Origin: Acidobacteriota bacterium
Lineage (GTDB): Bacteria; Acidobacteriota; UBA6911
Length of the DNA: 51,871 nucleotides
Assembly (NCBI GenBank): GCA_016934295.1
Contig: JAFGTD010000258.1
Location: 1-51,871, forward strand
Direction: 5' to 3'
Below, piece after piece: positions 5,836 through 41,366 of the stretch (its first letter is position 1; each line of letters begins with the position of its first letter). The notes under the pieces are model-generated. The model saw only the letters and a program-made list of their open reading frames with translations, ran no database searches and was not told the origin of the DNA. Both the position numbers and the translations under genes were made by a program.

Positions 5836-6351
5836 CTACGGTTTTGCCTCTTTCGGCGTGCCATAGGAGCTTGAAAGCGATATTTCCAGAAACACAATAG
5901 GTTTTTCGGGACTCACATTCTTGATTACGATCGGGCAATGCGGAATTCCCGGCGGCATTGTGACACAACCCGGTTTTGTAAGAACGTGTTTCTCTCCGTC
6001 AATTGTATATTCAATCACCGCATCAAAATCGGTTATATCCAACGGATTGCCTCCGATAAAACAAAGAGTTTCCTCGAAATCATGGGAATGAGGCATATCG
6101 AAGCTGATAGGCTTTGCCAGGCAGTGGTAGCACATACTGACATCGCCCTGGAGTTTGCCGTCGCGGGCCACCAGGGACGTTCCGGTATAGTGCGCAATCT
6201 TGTGATAAAGCTCCGTCGTAAGCACATATTTCCCATATTTTGTATTATCCCTGTCTGATACCGGCTCTTGAGAAGAAGCTTTCAATCCGGCCCAAACCAA
6301 AACGGCCGCTAAACATGTCGCGGCCACCAATCCCTTTCGCATCAGTTTCAT
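5836..6351 (-). CDS. Exported small cupin-type protein (family copy 1)
   Basis: 171 residues. A signal peptide (MKLMRKG, hydrophobic core, cleavage near LKASSQ) leads to the family signature KYGKYV. The cupin metal motif follows: HSHDFEE, then FIGG, and later PPGIPHCP. The two His of HxH, the Glu and the last His would form the usual metal site. Three relatives lie at 8506, 30753 and 35919; this is the only copy with a signal peptide. The start ATG has GGAGG seven bases upstream. It is transcribed divergently from the candidate selenoprotein operon across a 313-bp gap. What it binds is unknown; a sensor, isomerase or oxygen-independent lyase are all possible for the cupin fold. Confidence 0.8.
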   Translation of the reverse strand: MKLMRKGLVAATCLAAVLVWAGLKASSQEPVSDRDNTKYGKYVLTTELYHKIAHYTGTSLVARDGKLQGDVSMCYHCLAKPISFDMPHSHDFEETLCFIGGNPLDITDFDAVIEYTIDGEKHVLTKPGCVTMPPGIPHCPIVIKNVSPEKPIVFLEISLSSSYGTPKEAKP

Positions 6352-6664
6352 GGTTCTTCCTCCCTTTGTTTATTCAGGTTACGGTCTCCTGCCCGGAATA
6401 TTCACACACAGGACAGATATCAGGGCGATACACTGTTTCTCCTATATTTAATAAACAGACAGATCGGACTCAAAATTCAGCGACACCTGATATCACGGAA
6501 GTTTGCCTCTCCATAGCAGCCCGTGGTAAAAGCACGATAGGCATCAAAAAAACGGAAGCAGGGCCGTCAGAAATAATTTATTCATTTTCCGCCATTCATA
6601 TTCCCATTGAAATTATTGAATACATAGAGAAAATCATAAGACAATTTAACCGGAGAGGGAGAAT
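6352..6664. promoter_or_regulatory. Divergent promoter region between the exported cupin and the UGSC operon
   Basis: The 313-bp AT-rich gap carries the 5' ends of both transcription units. The plus-strand end holds a strong ribosome-binding site (GGAGAGGGAG just before ATG 6665). I could not identify a confident -35/-10 pair or operator, and no gene is seen. Confidence 0.5.
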
Positions 6665-8443
6665 ATGAGTTCGTTACATTTAACAACCAAACGGTATTGG
6701 AGATTTTTTATCATCGGTGCGTTCATTCTCGCATCATTTGCCGCCTGTAAAAACGATGGGAAGCTGACCGTTCTCGATCCCAGAGGCCAGCCGTCCGGCA
6801 TATTCGGCCGGGTGGCTGAAGCAGGCGCGGGCATACTGGCCAATCGCAATCCCGAAACCCAGCCCACGCTGTCCGTTGACGAGCTTGTTCCCCTTCGGAT
6901 GGCGCCCAGGCTGGACAGTCTGGACAACAAGACGATTTACCTGGTGGATGTCGGTTTCGCCGGCAGCAAAGAGTTCTTTGAAGAAGTGAAGGCGTGGTTC
7001 CGTGAAAATATGCCTTCCGTCAAAACGGTAATCCACATCAAGAGCAACAGCGCGTTCGAGGACAGTCCTGAACTCTGGCCCGAACTGAAGAAAAAGGCGG
7101 ACGGCGTGGTTTTCGGCGTGGGCGGGTGAGACGGTTGTTCGGCGGGTACCGCCGAGTTCTCCCGCATCATGGAAAGCGAGTACGGGATTCCCACTGCCCC
7201 AGTCGTCACCGCACGATTCGCGGAATACGTCTTAAGAGACGGCCGCTCCCATGGAATGAACCTGCGCTGGACCTTCCCTCCTTATCCCGTCGCGTGGGTT
7301 TCCAGGGAAACTCTCCGTGAATACATACAGGGGAACGATCCCGTAACCGGCGTGCCGTTAATGACTGAAATTATCGACGCGCTGACAAAGCCGTTAACCG
7401 AGGCCGAGAAGAACCCCGAAATACCCGAAAGGCCCCAAAGGCCCCGCCTGCTGGATCCGGATTCCGAGGCGAACCTCCACCGGTTGTTCCTGCAGAACGG
7501 CTGGACCGACGGGTTGCCTATCGTGCTGCCGACCGAGGAAAGAGTCGCAGAAATGCTTACCGGAACCGACCATGATCCCCGGGAAGAGGTAGGCATGATG
7601 TCCGTCACCACACATGAGGAACAGAATAAATACACTGTGGAAAAGGTGGCCGTAAACGCCGTTATGGCCGGCGCCCGGCCGGAGCATCTGCCGGTCATCC
7701 TGGCGATCGCTTCGACCAAGCACCCCTCCATTCCCAGCTCGACAGGTTCCTACGGAAGCATGGTGGTCGTAAACGGTCCGGTTGCGAAGACAATCGGCAT
7801 GAACAGCGGCGTCGGTGCAATGGGGCCGTTCAATTATGCCAATTCCGTCATCGGCAGGGCCTGGACGCTTATGAGCATTAACTTCGGCAACGCGCGGGCG
7901 GGCGACACCTATATGGCGACGATCGGCAACGGTTTGAGTTTTACCAACCAGTGCAGCGCCGAAAACGAGGAAAAGAGCCCCTGGGAGCCCTTTCATGTAC
8001 GTAAAGGATTCAAGGCCTCCGAGAGTACAGTCAGCGTTTTTCGCGGCTGGAACGTCTCGACACTCGGGATGGGCGGAGCAGATGCATTGCTGCAGAGAAT
8101 TCAATCATCCGGGATGATGGGAAACAGTACCTTCGTGGTGGACCCGTTGGCAGCCAAGTCCCTGAAAGACGAAGGCTGGAACGATCCGGGCAGGCTGAGC
8201 GAGCATCTGGCTGATAAGATTGGATCCTCTTACTTTAAACCAAATCCGGAAGGCATCAATTTCATCGTTGTAGGCGGTGAAACCAATCCCATCTGGCAGT
8301 CAACCGACTATACCTATTATAAGACCGCGTCGATAGACAAATGGGTGCCCAAGGACGGGATCAAACTTGATGCGATGCCCCTCCGCATGCCGGTATATAA
8401 AGAATGTGAAGACGAACTGTGCATTATAGGGAGAAGCAATTGA
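6665..8443 (+). CDS. UGSC-family candidate selenoprotein, Sec encoded by in-frame TGA at 7127, probable lipoprotein
   Basis: One 592-residue frame is interrupted only by TGA at 7127-7129 (residue 155). The frame reads on without shift, and the protein on both sides belongs together: VVFGVGG, then U-D-G-C-S-A-G. This gives a UxxC redox pair with the same spacing as the motif that names the UGSC (seleno)protein family. A hairpin with a GGU loop follows the UGA at SECIS distance. The next ATG (7169) has no ribosome-binding site, against a separate second gene. The N-terminus is hydrophobic and ends SFAAC, so a membrane lipoprotein is likely. The C-terminal domain carries GWTDGLP, TVEKVAVNAVMAGA and AENEEKSPWEPF, as in UGSC relatives. 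The biochemical role of the family is not established; a thiol/selenol redox step is inferred. It is the first gene of the glycyl radical enzyme operon, 62 bp before the cupin. Confidence 0.82.
7127..7158 (+). promoter_or_regulatory. Candidate bacterial SECIS element at UGA codon 155
   Basis: UGA at 7127-7129 is followed by an 8-bp stem, 7137-7144 with 7150-7157. It has six Watson-Crick pairs nearest the loop and two G-U pairs at the base, closing the five-base loop GGUAC. Bacterial SECIS hairpins place a GGU-containing apical loop about 15-20 nt after UGA for SelB binding; here 15 nt separate UGA from the loop. All stem bases are coding, as expected. Confidence 0.75.
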
Positions 8444-8505
8444 GGGCTACATCTGAGTCCGTATTTGCGGTATGCTTACAGGATGTCATTGAATAGGAGT
8501 TGCTG

Positions 8506-8967
8506 ATGTCAGATCCAAAAGAGGAGCCCAAAGCGGTGTTTTGCACCAATACCCAGGTGCCTCCCGGTGTCCATGATTTCGAGACCGAGGACGGGGAACC
8601 CGGTACGAAGGACGCGCCCGATCCTATTAACAGAGTCATTTACATGGACGATCGCGTTGTTCCGGGATCTTTTTATGTCGAAGCCGTGTGGGTGACGGGA
8701 TCGGTACCGAAGGTTCACCCCGTTCATCGTCACGATCACGATGAGGTCCTCGGCTTTGTGGGCAGCAATATGGATGATCCGAATGACCTGGGAGCCGAAA
8801 TCGATATCATCATTGACGGCAAAAAAACGACGATTACGAAAACATGCTTTATCCATGTGCCTGCCGGAGTGGAGCATGGAGGGCTTTGTTTCAGGAAAAT
8901 CGACAGGCCGGTATTCCAGATCGCCATGCTGAGGCAGGATAAATTTGAAAGTGTTCCGCCCACATAA
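8506..8967 (+). CDS. Small cupin-type protein (family copy 2), in the glycyl radical enzyme operon
   Basis: 153 residues, cytoplasmic (no signal). It has the metal motif HRHDHDE with FVGS following, DLGAEIDIIID, then VPAGVEHGG. The family is shared with the proteins at 5836, 30753 and 35919; alignable blocks are HxHDxDE, DLGxE(I/V) and PAGxxH. I chose ATG 8506 because AGGAG lies seven bases upstream; a TTG at 8500 is too close to it. It sits 62 bp after the UGSC gene and 19 bp before the activase, so it is almost certainly co-transcribed. The operon setting suggests it handles the substrate, product or a metal needed by the radical enzyme pathway, but that is inference. Confidence 0.82.
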   Translation: MSDPKEEPKAVFCTNTQVPPGVHDFETEDGEPGTKDAPDPINRVIYMDDRVVPGSFYVEAVWVTGSVPKVHPVHRHDHDEVLGFVGSNMDDPNDLGAEIDIIIDGKKTTITKTCFIHVPAGVEHGGLCFRKIDRPVFQIAMLRQDKFESVPPT

Positions 8968-8986: not shown

Positions 8987-9922
8987 ATGATGCCTACCGG
9001 GGAAATTGTTGCGCCGCAAACAGCGGTCATTATCAACATTCAGGGATTTTCCATCCACGACGGACCGGGAATAAGAACCGTCGTCTTTTTCAAGGGATGT
9101 CCGCTGTCCTGCCGGTGGTGCGCGAATCCGGAATGCCTGTCGGTAGAGCCGCAGGTTGGCTTCATTGAAACCCTCTGCACGGATTGCGGCAAATGCTTCG
9201 AAATCTGCGCCCATAAGGCCATCCGACCCGGAGAAGGGGTTCACAGAATCGACTATTCCCGGTGCAACTCCTGCGGAGATTGCGTGGATCACTGCGGTTA
9301 CGGCGCGCTTGTCCGCTATGGCGAATCGAAAACGGTCGCCGATGTCTGGGATGTCGTCCGGCGGGACAAGATTTTTTACGACAGTTCGGGCGGAGGCGTC
9401 ACGGCTTCGGGCGGGGAGCCGTTGCTCCGGGCGGGATTCGTTCGGGAACTGTTTGAGCTGTGCAAGGGGGAGCAGATTAATACCTGTATAGAAACATGCG
9501 GGTTAGCCGGCCGGGAGGCGCTGCTTGAGGTCATCCCCGTTACGGATCATTTTCTGTTTGACCTGAAGCATATGGATTCGGACCTCCATAACAGGCACAC
9601 CGGACAACCCAACAGTTTAATTCTCGAAAACGCCGCCTGGATTCTTGAACAGAGTGTGGACACCGTGTTCCGCCAGCCGTTGGTTCCGGGGATAAACGAC
9701 ACAACCGGGAATATCGAGGCGACCGCGGCATTTCTGTCCGGCCTCGGTAAAAGCGACCTAAGACTGGAGTTAATGCCCTACCATCGAATGGGCCAAAGCA
9801 AATACCGGGCGCTCAACATGAAATATCCTATGGACGGGACCGACGCCGCAGAGGAAGAAATGGTAGAATCGGTAATGAGAGCGTATCAGGACCGCGGCAT
9901 ACGCTGCACGATCTCAAGATAA
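8987..9922 (+). CDS. Glycyl-radical-enzyme activating protein (radical SAM)
   Basis: 311 residues. The protein uses S-adenosylmethionine and a 4Fe-4S cluster to abstract a hydrogen from the glycine of its partner. Seen in order: FSIHDGPGIRTVVFFKGC, the radical-SAM triad CPLSCRWC, an inserted ferredoxin-like domain with two clusters (CTDCGKCFEIC and CNSCGDCVDHC), the glycine-rich SAM strand TASGGEPLL, and FDLKHMD. The inserted two-cluster domain is typical of activases for dehydratase-, decarboxylase- and succinate synthase-type glycyl radical enzymes rather than of PflA. The target is clearly the next gene, 19 bp downstream. ATG 8987 or 8990 may serve as start. Anaerobic function is implied. 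Confidence 0.95.
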   Translation: MMPTGEIVAPQTAVIINIQGFSIHDGPGIRTVVFFKGCPLSCRWCANPECLSVEPQVGFIETLCTDCGKCFEICAHKAIRPGEGVHRIDYSRCNSCGDCVDHCGYGALVRYGESKTVADVWDVVRRDKIFYDSSGGGVTASGGEPLLRAGFVRELFELCKGEQINTCIETCGLAGREALLEVIPVTDHFLFDLKHMDSDLHNRHTGQPNSLILENAAWILEQSVDTVFRQPLVPGINDTTGNIEATAAFLSGLGKSDLRLELMPYHRMGQSKYRALNMKYPMDGTDAAEEEMVESVMRAYQDRGIRCTISR

Positions 9923-9941
9923 ATGTACACCGGAGTCAGTT

Positions 9942-12386
9942 ATGGTTAATGCAAACACGCAACTGCTGGATCGGATCGATAATCTCAAACTCGGCGAACG
10001 CGTCCTGGAATGGAAGCAGGCCATGAACGCCGCCGGGTGGAAGCTTTTCGCCGAAAGGGAAAAGTGGACCGTCGAATCCTGGCGGGAAACCGCAGGGCTG
10101 GATATCCAGCTGCGGCGCGCGCTCCTTTTCAAGAAGATTGTGGAAAATATCGAAATCCGCATTCATGACTACGACATGCTGGCGGGCCGGCTGACGCCTG
10201 CCGTTATTGGTTGCATGACATCCATCGACGTTTGCGGCGACTACATCCCGGGCATCTGGAAAGACTCCGACGAGCTGAAAATCACGATGGACGCGAATGT
10301 AGGCATGGATCCCGAAAGCATTGAAATTCTTCGCACCAGCGCCCGGGAATTCCGGGGCAAAACAGCGCCCGAGATGACCTACAAGGCGTGGGAAGCGGCC
10401 GACGGAGGCTGGATACGGGATGCCGAAGCAGCCAAGCTGAAAGACCCGACCCTGGACACCGCAATATTCGGGCAAGTCACGTCCGTACTGATGTGGAACA
10501 AGGTCCTCGAAAAAGGCCTGAAAGCATTCATCCAGGAGGCCCGTCAACATATCGATGCGTTTATTGAAAACCGGGAAAGCGATATCGACAGGCTTTACTT
10601 CTGGAAATCTTCAATCATCGCCTGCGAAGCGGTCATCAGCCATGCGCGCAGATACGCCGCTTTAGCAAGGGACATGGCAAAAGAGGAAACAAGGCCGGAA
10701 CGCAAGGCCGAATTGCTCCAGATTGCGGCCTGCTGCGACCATGTGCCGGAAAACCCGGCCAGGACTTTTCATGAGGCCCTTCAGTCGATGGCCATTGTCG
10801 GCGTATGCAAAAACTACGAACATCCGATGCACAACAATCCGCAATGGGGCCGCGGCGACCAGTATCTGTATCCCTACTTTATCCGGGACATTGAAAACGG
10901 CACCATTACGCTGGAAAAAGCATCCGACCTGCTTGCGGAACTTATAGGCCGATGGGGCACGCAGACCTTCGTTTCTTCCGAAAGCTCCATGGAATCGCAC
11001 CAGATCAATTTCGGTATCAACAACGCCATGATCGGCGGCGTAGATTGTTCGGGCGCCGATTGCTCGAACGAATTGAGCTATCTTTTCCTGCACGTTGTCG
11101 GCCTCCTTCAGCTGTCGTCTCCCACGCTGGGACTACGCTGGAACAAAAATACGCCTTCCTGGATGATGAACAAAGCCATCCGAACGAACATGGCCACGAA
11201 AGGCGGCATTCCCCTGTTCGAGAATGACGAAGTCGTCCTATCGCATTTCCTTAAGGACGGGATTCCCATGGAGGAAGCCGTGGAGTGGTGCGGTCTGGGG
11301 TGCGTGTATCCCTGTCTCCCTTCGAGAGCGGAGCATTACGGCGCTGAAGGCATCGCCGCCTGCAATATGGCCTCAATGCTGCACCTGGTTTTGCACAACG
11401 GCGTGGATGTAAACGGCAAACGCACGGGACTTGAAACCGGCGATCCGAGAGAGTTTAAGAGCTTTGATGCGTTGTATGACGCACTGATGCAGCAGCACCG
11501 ATTCATCACACACCGCATTTTCTGGTTAGCCTCCATTGCCCGAAAGGAACAGCCCAAGCACATGAGGCTCCCGTTTCTGTCGACCGTGGGCATTCAAAGC
11601 TGCATGGACCGGGGACAGGATCTGCTGATTCCGGATCCTGATTCCTGCATGTTCGGCATTTCCGACAGGGCCATTATCGATGTCGCCGATTCTCTTACGG
11701 CCGTCAAAAAGCTGGTATTCGATAAAAAGAAGCTGACCATGGAGGAGCTTCTCGAGGCACTCGACAGTAACTTCGAAGGCAAACGGGGTGAAGAAATCCG
11801 GCTCTTGTGTCTGGCGCAACCTAAATTCGGCAATGATATCGATGAGGTGGACCTGCTGGCTAAAAAAATCGGCGAAGACTCGGAGCGCATTATCCGCGGT
11901 TATGACAACTCTCCCTTCCGCAATTACATGATCGCGAGAGAAGGTCTTGCCTGGCACTATTTCGGCGGGCTCGGCGTGGGTGCTTTGCCCAACGGCAGAA
12001 AGGCATTCGAGCCGCTCAATGACGGCGCAATCTCTCCGATGAGAGGGGTTGATCAGTCGGGACCGACCGCCGTGCTTCGTTCGGCGCTCAAAGCGGGATT
12101 CAAGGAATCCCATGCCTCTGTGCTGAACCAGAAATTCTCCTCTTCAATGCTGGGAAGCAACGAGAGCATTGACAAGCTGGGCGCTTATACCAACGCCTTT
12201 ATGGCGAACGGCGGTTCTCACATTCAGTACAACATGGTGGACACGAACGAACTGCGGGACGCGAAAATACATCCTGAAAACCATCGCGATCTGATCGTCC
12301 GCATCGGTGGATTCAGCGCTTATTTCACGCAGCTTTCTCCCGACATCCAGGATGATGTCATAAACAGGAGCGAACATAGCCTTTAA
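9942..12386 (+). CDS. Glycyl radical enzyme of unknown substrate (pyruvate formate-lyase superfamily)
   Basis: 814 residues, full length for the family. The radical-bearing glycine is Gly790 in RIGGFSAYF, 24 residues from the C-terminus, as usual. The thiyl-radical cysteine is Cys454 in the loop GLGCVYPC. In diol dehydratases, choline lyase and arylacetate decarboxylases the active Cys is followed two residues later by Glu (CxE); here Tyr follows, so those reactions are less likely. A formate-lyase CC pair is also absent. The enzyme may be an X-succinate synthase-like or uncharacterised branch. It ends an operon with a UGSC candidate selenoprotein, a cupin and its own activase. The downstream gene converges on it, 27 bp away. 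Function requires strict anoxia. Substrate cannot be assigned from sequence alone. Confidence 0.93.
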   Translation: MVNANTQLLDRIDNLKLGERVLEWKQAMNAAGWKLFAEREKWTVESWRETAGLDIQLRRALLFKKIVENIEIRIHDYDMLAGRLTPAVIGCMTSIDVCGDYIPGIWKDSDELKITMDANVGMDPESIEILRTSAREFRGKTAPEMTYKAWEAADGGWIRDAEAAKLKDPTLDTAIFGQVTSVLMWNKVLEKGLKAFIQEARQHIDAFIENRESDIDRLYFWKSSIIACEAVISHARRYAALARDMAKEETRPERKAELLQIAACCDHVPENPARTFHEALQSMAIVGVCKNYEHPMHNNPQWGRGDQYLYPYFIRDIENGTITLEKASDLLAELIGRWGTQTFVSSESSMESHQINFGINNAMIGGVDCSGADCSNELSYLFLHVVGLLQLSSPTLGLRWNKNTPSWMMNKAIRTNMATKGGIPLFENDEVVLSHFLKDGIPMEEAVEWCGLGCVYPCLPSRAEHYGAEGIAACNMASMLHLVLHNGVDVNGKRTGLETGDPREFKSFDALYDALMQQHRFITHRIFWLASIARKEQPKHMRLPFLSTVGIQSCMDRGQDLLIPDPDSCMFGISDRAIIDVADSLTAVKKLVFDKKKLTMEELLEALDSNFEGKRGEEIRLLCLAQPKFGNDIDEVDLLAKKIGEDSERIIRGYDNSPFRNYMIAREGLAWHYFGGLGVGALPNGRKAFEPLNDGAISPMRGVDQSGPTAVLRSALKAGFKESHASVLNQKFSSSMLGSNESIDKLGAYTNAFMANGGSHIQYNMVDTNELRDAKIHPENHRDLIVRIGGFSAYFTQLSPDIQDDVINRSEHSL

Positions 12387-30752: not shown

Positions 30753-31187
30753 TCAGACCCTGCTGTATTCGGGAGCGAAGAAAAGGTCGTGAAACAGGAT
30801 CGGCTTGTCGGGATCGTTGATTTTTTTGAAATTCAGCGGTCCGTGATACAGGCCGGCCGGAATAAAGATCATGGTGGCTTCCGTGATGACCTGCGTTTCA
30901 ATATCTTTCCCATCCTCGCTCAGGCCGAATTCCACGACACCGCCCAAATCGGGCATATTCTTAATGTCCCCTCCGGCAAAGATAATAAACTGGTCAAAAT
31001 CATGTTTATGGCAATCCTCCACCATCACAAAGGGCTCGGTAATCGCCCACCAGCTCATTGAAAAATTCGTATTGCCGAAATCTCCGCCGCTCTTCAGTCC
31101 CAGACGCGGCGCCGTCACTTCAGGGTGAGGCGTAGGGTTGTTCATCACCCCTTTCCTGACATATTTTGCAAACTTCGATGATTCCAC
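30753..31187 (-). CDS. Small cupin-type protein (family copy 3, metal Glu replaced by Gln)
   Basis: 144 residues, cytoplasmic. It has FAKYVRKG at the N-terminus, HKHDFDQF with FAGG following, DLGGVVEFGL, then IPAGLYHGPLNF. In the other three copies the residue after HxHDx(D/E) is Glu, which would be a metal ligand; here it is Gln, so metal binding may differ. It also carries a His-Lys-His-Asp core otherwise intact. GTG is the start codon (31187), with GGGAGGG seven bases upstream. It lies next to the YfcC fragment and 45 bp before the convergent-strand VWA gene end on the same strand. Confidence 0.78.
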   Translation of the reverse strand: MESSKFAKYVRKGVMNNPTPHPEVTAPRLGLKSGGDFGNTNFSMSWWAITEPFVMVEDCHKHDFDQFIIFAGGDIKNMPDLGGVVEFGLSEDGKDIETQVITEATMIFIPAGLYHGPLNFKKINDPDKPILFHDLFFAPEYSRV

Positions 31188-35918: not shown

Positions 35919-36353
35919 TTATTGATCTTCGTCTTTAATGTACCGGCCGCCGGGCACGGTGGTGAAATGGAATATGGGCCGGTCGACGCGCTTCAGTATC
36001 AGGGGGCAGTGTTTCATCCCCGCAGGCACGAACAACAGGGCGCTCTTGGTAATAACCTGCTTTTCGTCTTCAATCCACATTTCTATTTCTCCGCCCAGAT
36101 CGTGGGGATTGGCCGGATCGCTGCCGAAAAACCCGATGATCTCGTCGGCATCGTGGACGTGGGGTTTATCTTCCAGCGTGGCCGCCTCTTTCATGTACCA
36201 TGCCGTATTCATATGAAACGCCCCTTCAACGACATTCTCGTCCATCCATAAAATGCGGGTGGCATATTTGGCATAGTCGGCCGCGATCTTCTTCTTCTCT
36301 TCGGGAACGATAAGATCGGTCACAACATATTTCCCATACTTCGACTCAGACAT
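35919..36353 (-). CDS. Small cupin-type protein (family copy 4)
   Basis: 144 residues, no signal peptide. It opens SKYGKYVVTDL, very close to the start of the mature exported copy (KYGKYVLTTEL). The metal site is HVHDADE with FFGS following, DLGGEIEMWIE, then VPAGMKHCP. ATG 36353 has AAGGAG upstream. It ends 6 bp from the GltD/DsrL-like gene, and a MITE-like repeat follows between it and the arylsulfotransferase. The function of this family is unknown; the repeated placement beside redox or catabolic genes suggests linked substrates. Confidence 0.82.
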   Translation of the reverse strand: MSESKYGKYVVTDLIVPEEKKKIAADYAKYATRILWMDENVVEGAFHMNTAWYMKEAATLEDKPHVHDADEIIGFFGSDPANPHDLGGEIEMWIEDEKQVITKSALLFVPAGMKHCPLILKRVDRPIFHFTTVPGGRYIKDEDQ

Positions 36354-38206: not shown

Positions 38207-39403
38207 ATGCGGAAGCGTTTTCCCGCCTTAATTGCCATCCTCTTTCTCCTGCCGTTTTGCCGGGCCGTAAACCCGCAGGAGGATGGAAGGCAATGGATCG
38301 ATCGGGTTGCACAGGCTTATGGAGAATTGCAGTCCTATCGCTTTGAAGGAGCGACCAAATCAAAAATTTACGGTTTCAGCAACACTTCAAAAACCACCCC
38401 CTTTGTGCGGTACGGGAAACCCAAGGAAAACAAATTCAGATACCAGACAGGAATAGGAAGATCGGTATGCGTGATCGCTTCCGACGGCATGACTACGACC
38501 GCCTGTCTCGGCGACAACCTGCAATATGCTCAAAAAAATTCGTCCGACATCGCTACCGATATCGCTGCTTTCTTTAAAAATGCAGCTGGTGCATACCTCG
38601 GATCGGCGCTTCCGGGTGATTACTCAGTACTCGGACCTAAAATAAGCCGCACCGTAATACTGGGACGTGAAAAGGTTCGCCTCAAGTCCACGCGTGTCGA
38701 CTGCATTGTTGTCGAAGCGGAGATTATTCCGGAAACTCCTTCCCTGCATACACAGACCATACGCACACTATGGATCGACCCGGACAGTTCGGTCGTATTG
38801 CGGGATATCAGGCATTTCCAGGCAACATCCCCGAAAGGCAAGGTATTTATAGATTCCACTGAGGAGATGCGGGTGTCATCGTACCGTATTAATGAAGAAA
38901 TCGAAGATTCGGTTTTCCAATTTACACCGCCGCGAAACGCCTATCTTTCTGAAGCGTTGGACCTTTCGTATCCCGATTCCGGTCTGGCCATCGGACCGCC
39001 GACCGATACTTTACAGTTATCGGATCTGGACGGCCGCAGTTATACCTTTGAAGAAATGAAAGGACAGATCGCTCTTCTCGATTTCTGGGCGACCTGGTGC
39101 GTCCCCTGTCGAAAGGAAATGCAGTCCCTTGAAAAGATCCATCAGCGGTTCAAGGACAGGGGACTCATAATATTCGGAGTCAACCGCGAGAGCGGACAGG
39201 TGCAATCGGATTTCCTTAAGAAAAAGCCCTTCACCTATCCTATGCTGCTGGATCAAAACGGCGATCTCACCAGGCGTTTCAACGCCGTAAACCTGCCGAC
39301 ACTGGTTCTTATAGACCGGCAGGGAAGAATTGCGGCATGGGAACAGGGACTGCTTAAGGAGGAAGAACTGGAAGGCCTGTTGAAACCTCTTGGCATTCAA
39401 TGA
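38207..39403 (+). CDS. Secreted protein with LolA-like N-terminal and TlpA-type thioredoxin C-terminal domain
   Basis: 398 residues with a signal peptide (MRKRFPALIAILFLLPF) and a GAGGT site five bases before the ATG. The first ~250 residues resemble the LolA/DUF2092 beta-sheet fold (ELQSYRFEGATKSKIYG). From about residue 265 there is a TlpA/AhpC-type thioredoxin domain with the redox pair WATWCVPCRKEM and the cis-Pro loop NLPTLVLI. Such fusions are common in Acidobacteriota, and probably act on disulfides or heme-related proteins in the envelope. It is followed 20 bp later by the VWFA-related gene, probably in one transcript. Confidence 0.85.
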   Translation: MRKRFPALIAILFLLPFCRAVNPQEDGRQWIDRVAQAYGELQSYRFEGATKSKIYGFSNTSKTTPFVRYGKPKENKFRYQTGIGRSVCVIASDGMTTTACLGDNLQYAQKNSSDIATDIAAFFKNAAGAYLGSALPGDYSVLGPKISRTVILGREKVRLKSTRVDCIVVEAEIIPETPSLHTQTIRTLWIDPDSSVVLRDIRHFQATSPKGKVFIDSTEEMRVSSYRINEEIEDSVFQFTPPRNAYLSEALDLSYPDSGLAIGPPTDTLQLSDLDGRSYTFEEMKGQIALLDFWATWCVPCRKEMQSLEKIHQRFKDRGLIIFGVNRESGQVQSDFLKKKPFTYPMLLDQNGDLTRRFNAVNLPTLVLIDRQGRIAAWEQGLLKEEELEGLLKPLGIQ

Positions 39404-39422
39404 AGACATGGAGAAGAACCGT

Positions 39423-41366
39423 ATGAAGAAACCATACCTTTCTCTTTTTATCCTGTTAGTCATGGCATCCATATTATGTGCCGGTCATTCCGCTCAATTT
39501 GAAATGGTGGAATTAAAGAATAAAGTGGAACCGATCATTTCAAGATCCCTCGTTCTGATTGACGCCAGCGTAACCGACAAAAACGGCAACCCCGTGCAAG
39601 GGCTTAAGGCAGAGGACTTTAAGCTTTCCCAGGACGGAAGGCAGCAGGAAATTACCGAATTTCATGAGATCGAACGCGCTACAGACGGCACTGAACCGAG
39701 AACAATCATATTTGTTATCGACGACCTCGGACTTCCCGGCAAGAAGTTCAACCAGGTTCGAACTGCTATTCGCAACTTTACAGATACCGTCATGCATCCC
39801 ACGGACAAGGTTGCAATAGCACGCACCGCCGGAGGCGGCGTCGTATTCCAGCCGCTGACTTCGGACGCATCCGAACTACGAACATCGATCAGCCGATGGC
39901 AATGGAGCATTGAAGCCGGGCGCCCTGCACAGAATGTCCTTCTGGCAACCAGCACATCCAGCGCCGCATTTATCCAATCCTGCGCCGGAAGCACCTGAGC
40001 TCCTAGAGGAATGGCAGTGCTGCCAACAAATAGATACGTTCAGCGGTATGATATACGTCCGTATACGGCTATGAACAGGATTTTCAACGACCTTATACCC
40101 ATCCCCGGGCGTAAGACAGTCATTCTTTTTTCACACAATTCTCTACCGTCTTTTTCTTCAACGTCCATAGGCCCTGTCCAAGCCATGAGAGCCTCCATTA
40201 ACATGTATCAGGCCGGATTGCCCGGATGGCGCCGGGACTGGGCCGATTTTGTTGAACAGACCGGGGGCTATGCGATTAAAGCGCGGACGGACGAATTTAC
40301 AGAGATCACACAGATCCTGCAGGATCAGGATCATTACTATATGCTGGGATACGTACCGGATGCCGAAACCCTGGATATCAAGCAAACAACCATCCAGACC
40401 GGTCAAGGTCCCAGGCAGTCCTATAAATTGGAATCTCACTTATTGAAGGTCAAGACCAAAGGTTCAAAGGTACGCACCAGGGCGGGTTTCAGCAACGTCG
40501 AACTGATATCAGGCTCCGCCAGTTCCAATAGATTCCGTCCAAGCAGCACATCCGGAATGATTACAAGCTCCCCTTTTGTTTCAGGGGACCTGAAAATTAC
40601 CACGGAAGCTATGTCCTTTTACAGTCCTACCGGGGATAGCATTATCCGTATCACACTCCATCTCGATGTAAAAGATCTTGCATTTGCGCCCAGATTTAAT
40701 GAGAACCAGAGTATCGCCGAGGTGAGTATTACGGGAAGGCTTGCGATTGACGGAAGGACCGTAAACACCTATAAGGGAAACGCCAGTTTCACGGCACCGT
40801 TACAGGCCTATAAAAAATCAATAGAGAAGGATTTTACATCCACTTTTGACATCCCGGCAGCCGGCCCGGGACTTTACGAACTGAGAACCTCGGTTTTCCA
40901 GCCACAAGCGGCACGAATCGGTAACGAGTCCATCCTGGTGGAGGTTCCCGATTTTACCCGTTCCGGACTGGTAACTTCGGGCATTGCCACATTCAACTCT
41001 TCAGAAGAATCTGAGGTGTATTCAGACGAAAGGCCGATCACACGGAGGGTGTCCCGGACGGATGCGTTCGGCTGCAGCCTTTACGTTTATAACGCTGAAC
41101 GGGATAAATCCAACGGCAAAGCCCGAATAGAAAGCCAATATCGACTTTACCGGGACGACAAACTGGTTCAGGCTTCTGAAGTACTCCCCGTATTGGATAT
41201 CGGAGGCCGTTCGACATCCGACAGCATCCCGGTCCAATTCGATATCGACCCCAGCCCGGAACTCACCGCCGGCAACTACCTTCTTGAAGTCCTCGTGGTA
41301 GACCGGCTCGCCGGGAACAAGAAAAATACTGCAGCACAGTCCGTTGCCATCGAACTGCTTGAATGA
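39423..41366 (+). pseudogene. VWFA-related acidobacterial-domain protein interrupted by in-frame TGA at 39996
   Basis: One frame of 647 codons is broken once, by TGA at 39996-39998 (codon 192), between CAGST and APRGM. Both sides are needed for one VWFA domain: VLIDASVTDKNGNPVQGLKAEDF before it, and IPGRKTVILFSHN, then YYMLGYVP, after it. A signal peptide starts at ATG 39423 (GGAG upstream). The first metal loop reads IDDLGLPG rather than DxSxS. The downstream ATG 40011 has a GAGGA before it but would start inside the domain. The likely causes are a nonsense mutation (fresh pseudogene) or UGA recoding; a short hairpin at 40012-40025 follows the TGA but is weaker than the one at 7137. Sequencing error is also possible. 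Confidence 0.75.

Follow-up and report, generated by a model that had tools for sequence, protein, structure and literature searches.

Does the UGA codon at position 7127 of this Acidobacteriota contig end a gene, or does it encode selenocysteine (Sec, U), and what might the resulting protein do? The window, by which we mean the whole stretch of 51,871 nucleotides (nt) analyzed here, belongs to a genome assembly of 5.45 Mb in 343 contigs that is 93.8% complete. On its forward strand, to which all coordinates below refer, a gene at 6665–8443 consists of a 592-codon frame (6665–8440) followed by a TGA stop (8441–8443). A preliminary description of the locus had proposed a selenoprotein of the UGSC family, and translation of the frame bore out its starting points: the TGA at 7127–7129 (codon 155) is the only internal stop, and the residues around it read GVGG-U-D-G-C, with U-x-x-C spacing. 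Our overall reading, to which we assign a probability of roughly 0.6, is that the gene encodes an exported selenoprotein produced by UGA recoding, whose Sec domain resembles that of the reductase subunits GrdB and PrdB and which would carry out reductive cleavage together with a partner domain.

The family assignment agreed with Pfam. The UGSC model (PF24696) matched residues 67–220 (E 8.2e-18; 65.5 bits against a gathering cut-off of 25), corresponding to positions 6863–7324. The narrower NCBIfam equivalog cut-off of NF041046, “UGSC family (seleno)protein”, was missed (43.2 of 125 bits), and the protein thus appears to be related to NF041046 proteins without being filed as an equivalog. At its most basic the protein belongs to a known family, but the relationship predicted for it is new, and the family has expanded to an unusual degree across the genus.

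The proposed Sec interpretation is supported by the translational machinery, by the residues found at the UGA column and by constraint on the protein sequence both before and after the codon. The source genome carries selA (550 bits), selB (407 bits), a tRNA-Sec with the UCA anticodon (72.5 bits) and two copies of selD, both of which are themselves interrupted by an in-frame TGA, so that every component the preliminary description had suggested looking for is present. We translated 53 loci, 28 from the source genome and 25 from GTDB, and the Sec site could be aligned in 43. It was TGA in 35 (20 from the source genome, including the window gene, and 15 from GTDB), cysteine (Cys) in two betaproteobacterial loci (L056 and L057) and neither in the remaining six. 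A Streptomyces dioscori homologue (L070), which adjoins a partner-domain gene, reads GDCGSC. Four orthologues of the window gene are 74–86% identical to it at the protein level (L050–L053) and a fifth is 64% identical (L054). In four of them the ratio of nonsynonymous to synonymous substitution rates (dN/dS) was 0.06–0.15 both before and after the UGA, with dS above 1 in L051, L053 and L054 and hence only L050 unsaturated, while L052 yielded no dS; coding constraint in these relatives therefore extends downstream of the codon. Because TGA also terminates this gene, TGA is not simply reassigned. Since the UGA is conserved and the genome holds the Sec machinery, the codon at 7127–7129 almost certainly encodes Sec155, which would make the gene a selenoprotein gene. 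The Cys three residues further on (Cys158, 7136–7138) followed the same pattern, being present in 19 of the 20 aligned source-genome loci with U and in none of the six without it (Fisher p 3e-5). Sec and this Cys thus appear to be retained and lost together, as would be expected of a redox pair.

The relationship of the Sec domain emerged from profile comparison. GrdB is selenoprotein B of glycine/sarcosine/betaine reductase, and PrdB is its counterpart in D-proline reductase. Aligned with hhalign against the Sec-bearing half of GrdB/PrdB (a profile of 18 of 20 fetched loci, two without a recognised Sec motif having been dropped), the UGSC Sec domain gave 94.4% with a score of 52.8 (P 8.8e-8) over 71 columns, with the two U residues aligned to each other and likewise the two C residues. 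The score was 45.3 when the U and C columns were both masked and 46.2 when the single GrdB was removed from the profile; the window-like subgroup alone (n = 8) gave 46.7, and the UGSC-motif subgroup (n = 6) gave 38.9. Among the controls, the best of 200 column shuffles reached 20.5 and the reversed comparison 12.6, and seven other profile pairs scored 11.5–21.6. On this evidence the UGSC Sec domain, predicted to be doubly wound alpha/beta, is likely to share a remote common ancestry with the Sec-bearing half of GrdB/PrdB. With hits accepted up to E 1, the window protein matched none of the models PF07355, TIGR01918 and TIGR04483. In one GrdB (L103) PF07355 stops at residue 353, two residues short of the Sec at 355, and is therefore blind to the shared part. 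That the Pfam GRDB model stops short of Sec may be one reason why the link has gone unseen, and we found no UGSC–GrdB link in the accessible portions of the open-licence literature on UGSC. Sequence searches of the PDB gave no match below E 0.19 for the UGSC-fusion profile, and a GrdB and a PrdB-like sequence, one of each, had no match at all, so that these searches offered no solved structure for testing a shared fold. PrdB-like selenoproteins with a U-P-x-C motif (L104–L121) also occur in numerous other genomes from this phylum, and a GrdE match was absent in two of these (G108 and G156).

Beyond the Sec domain, the protein continues into a C-terminal domain (residues 266–560, positions 7460–8344) that had no significant Pfam match and for which no fold placement was reached; its best-kept stretch is ENEE-K-SPW-P-H. 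Of nine GTDB loci found through this domain (L064–L072), eight have an adjoining UGSC domain (in pieces in L068), with UGA in seven and Cys in L070, and the ninth (L072) starts at a contig edge. Fusion in the window gene and adjacency elsewhere suggest that the C-terminal domain is a functional partner of the UGSC domain. One such locus, on a Burkholderiales contig (L069), holds three UGA-bearing UGSC domains and three partner-domain copies within about 6.5 kb.

The N-terminus carries a predicted lipoprotein signal peptide (6665–6748) with a lipobox-like FAAC ending in Cys28, and a Cys likewise terminates the hydrophobic N-terminal segment in L050–L053. The encoded protein is accordingly predicted to be exported and is probably a lipoprotein; these calls, here and in the paralogues, rest on a hydrophobic-segment threshold and our own lipobox pattern. 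A hydrophobic N-terminal segment was found by the simple threshold in 17 of the 26 source-genome paralogues longer than 400 residues, four of which, including the window gene, have a lipobox by our pattern. Among the Sec paralogues long enough to judge, a hand count gave 14 of 19 with such a segment, and many UGSC paralogues are thus predicted to be exported.

These paralogues are numerous. The window protein as query found 34 matching stretches in its own genome, and the Pfam UGSC model gave 28 matches, 27 of them over the cut-off and 20 of those with an in-frame TGA; one additional TGA-bearing locus (L045) was picked up by the protein query only. The closest two full-length paralogues in the genome share 70% identity, which indicates that they are not strain duplicates. 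Within the genus, each of the 10 genomes searched contained between 11 and 34 matching stretches, and the strongest matches (at least 267 bits; 109, counted by eye) all had an in-frame TGA, whose place was checked in a minority of them. In a sample of 297 genomes from the phylum, with at most four candidates scored per genome, 31 had a match, including all nine of the genus, and the four genomes from other genera of the same family had none. By comparison, 26 organisms accounted for the 33 UGSC selenoproteins of a 2016 survey that covered more than 5200 genomes. For whole selenoproteomes, the largest sizes cited elsewhere are 57 and 63 genes, the 63-gene assembly possibly mixing strains. Some 20 Sec copies of one family in a single genome are therefore unusual. 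Two further loci of the source genome have distinctive Sec sites: a UGSC paralogue (L043) has two successive in-frame TGA codons at the site (GGUUGC), and a thioredoxin-family protein (L140) has an in-frame TGA in the motif SWUPYC.

Downstream of the UGA lies a hairpin resembling a bacterial selenocysteine insertion sequence (SECIS) at 7138–7156. The hairpin of the preliminary description stands in that a stem is present, starts 8 nt past the UGA and is unusually stable; the 8-bp stem (7138–7145 with 7149–7156) goes with the loop GUA, and the loop GGUAC goes with an alternative 7-bp stem. In 33 Sec loci, the 27 nt starting 7 nt past the UGA were stabler than other segments of the same open reading frames (ORFs). 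Their median lay at the 4.7th percentile, the most favourable of three segment choices (the other two medians were 7.0 and 8.4), with a Kolmogorov–Smirnov p of 1.6e-17 that is too small because the loci are kin.

What such a protein might do is suggested by the apparent relationship of its selenium site to glycine- and proline-degrading enzymes. According to a review, the glycine reductase subunit that binds glycine and sets ammonia free is GrdB, and its counterpart by homology in the cleavage of the proline ring is PrdB. A GrdB-like selenoprotein has also been proposed to cleave the C–F bond of fluoroacetate by Sec attack, in a strain with eight grdB genes (PMC10838667). Given the GrdB/PrdB homology, we propose similar chemistry for UGSC. 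The C-terminal domain would hold a substrate, and the selenolate, at what would be the N-terminus of a helix, would attack an activated centre of that substrate and expel a leaving group, as in GrdB/PrdB. Cys158 would then resolve the adduct to give a Se–S bond, which an external dithiol would reduce, and the Sec paralogues, about 20 in all, would act as reductases on differing substrates. Reductive bond cleavage by a UGSC selenoprotein, argued here by analogy, is a tentative proposal that we would place somewhat short of even odds. Still more doubtful is a broader view that places UGSC within the selenoprotein-B superfamily of the glycine/proline reductases, as a branch so far unrecognised whose substrate-holding partner is of a new kind. 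In this view one uncultured genus would deploy up to about 20 selenoenzymes per genome, most of them exported and each cleaving its own substrate reductively.

Several observations weigh against the reading of the gene as a GrdB/PrdB-like reductive selenoenzyme. The homology spans about 70 residues, a single PrdB-like sequence compared with the UGSC profile gave 22.6% (P 9e-4), and TIGR01918 (GrdB) and TIGR04483 (PrdB) span Sec yet miss the window protein. PF07355 (GrdB) has no match in the source genome, and GrdE (PF09338) has none there and two in a positive-control genome (G132), PrdA not having been searched for. The C-terminal domain showed no similarity to two GrdE sequences, and with neither a GrdB or GrdE match nor C-terminal likeness to GrdE, the substrate-activating half would have to differ. 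U is missing from seven of the 27 UGSC proteins of the genome, and since the six U-less loci with an aligned site also lack the Cys at +3, some family members would differ in role and do something else. No biochemistry was found. With respect to the hairpin, six of eight loci without U were not unusually stable at the corresponding segment; the other two, the Cys homologues L056 and L057, were as stable as the Sec loci, so part of the stability signal may be coding-derived. Pair by pair, covariation of the stem did not reach significance in either of two subgroups (9 and 13 sequences); by eye, the distance of the hairpin from the UGA varies slightly from one subgroup to another, which hinders a joint count. 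That the hairpin is more than chance is supported by its place and stability, not by covariation.

Alternative explanations differ in how much of this evidence they accommodate. If the UGA at 7127 were a true stop, the locus would encode two products, a lipoprotein of 154 residues and a protein of 424 residues starting from the ATG at 7169, or else it would be a recently broken gene. Translation under table 11 does halt at this codon and the ATG is available, but 34 further loci have UGA in the same column, where L056 and L057 have Cys, dN/dS is low on both sides, and the Sec machinery is complete. Moreover, no ribosome-binding site was seen by eye ahead of 7169, as the preliminary description had stated, whereas a purine-rich, Shine-Dalgarno-like GGAGAGGGAG (6652–6661, read from the sequence) precedes the ATG at 6665. 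We consider termination at this codon extremely improbable.

Among functional alternatives for a genuine selenoprotein, the protein could be a general thiol-disulfide or peroxide oxidoreductase in which U-x-x-C shuttles electrons, breaking S–S or O–O bonds alone. The spacing is common to thioredoxin-type selenoproteins, and the co-occurrence of Sec and the +3 Cys fits this role equally well. It is also implied by the thioredoxin-like fold guessed for UGSC in PMC2398784, a placing that a 2026 review (PMC13188914) repeats, describing nearly all such proteins as largely uncharacterised. The UGSC Sec domain, however, showed no profile similarity to four thioredoxin-family domains, and no thioredoxin fold was among the matches listed for it; the GrdB/PrdB homology calls the thioredoxin-like guess into question and offers concrete, testable chemistry instead. 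We hold an oxidoreductase of this kind to be rather unlikely. A role in Sec-dependent metal or metalloid handling, with paralogues serving different metal species instead of organic-substrate reduction, would suit the predicted exported, lipoprotein-like location, and a selenolate–thiolate pair generally suits soft metals. For some other selenoproteins, the 2026 review just cited suggests that they serve as metal ligands. The homology to GrdB/PrdB points in another direction, and we regard metal handling as quite improbable.

The surroundings of the gene were also compared. A functional link to a downstream glycyl radical enzyme cluster (cupin at 8500, activase at 8987, enzyme at 9942) was dropped, because tblastn found none of these three genes beside the orthologues L050–L054 (L053 offering just 4.5 kb). 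Neighbours of the paralogues were grouped by clustering, mostly without annotation; apart from UGSC, the most widely recurring clusters were found in 6 of the 20 regions each, and they are one to which the molybdopterin-domain piece of the window belongs and one unnamed family. The glycyl radical enzyme (814 aa) and its activase occupy 8987–12383, and the closest NCBIfam equivalogs of the enzyme (sulfopropanediol and hydroxyproline dehydratases) all fell under cut-off. Four small cupin-like proteins were recognised by eye (5839–6351, 8500–8964, 30756–31187 and 35922–36353), and Pfam Cupin_2 matched weakly in both of the two tested. A scan of the window for TGA-interrupted frames with long open flanks found four, including the UGSC gene, and the other three lack U-x-x-C or C-x-x-U by eye. 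At 39384–41363, ORFs of 204 and 455 codons lie in one frame split by a single TGA (39996) whose context has no redox motif, and they are perhaps two genes or a broken gene.

What our analysis adds to the preliminary description is the set of about 20 Sec paralogues, the predicted export signal, the C-terminal domain as a likely partner and the likeness to GrdB/PrdB, and these features set the protein in relation to several known systems. With the UGSC family it shares the U-x-x-C motif and the presence of Sec or Cys at the site; it differs in having U-D-G-C in place of U-G-S-C, a fused C-terminal domain, a lipoprotein-like signal and some 20 Sec paralogues in its genome. By 2008 both the UGSC family and a protein joining UGSC to a domain of unknown nature had been published, and the UGSC/Unknown_1 fusion of that Global Ocean Sampling survey (PMC2398784) is similar in architecture. 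Thioredoxin-like selenoproteins have the U-x-x-C spacing in common but differ in the predicted strand order around Sec. The UGSC Sec domain and the Sec half of GrdB/PrdB have in common U-x-x-C, a helix and a GIPT strand, whereas the partner domain differs and the window protein is predicted to be exported. In glycine and proline reduction, a Sec protein is paired with a partner subunit, as GrdB with GrdE and PrdB with PrdA. Under the broader view given above, the battery of UGSC paralogues would be comparable to the reductive dehalogenases that other anaerobes multiply. The predicted relationship and the genus-wide expansion together make this long-uncharacterised family testable.
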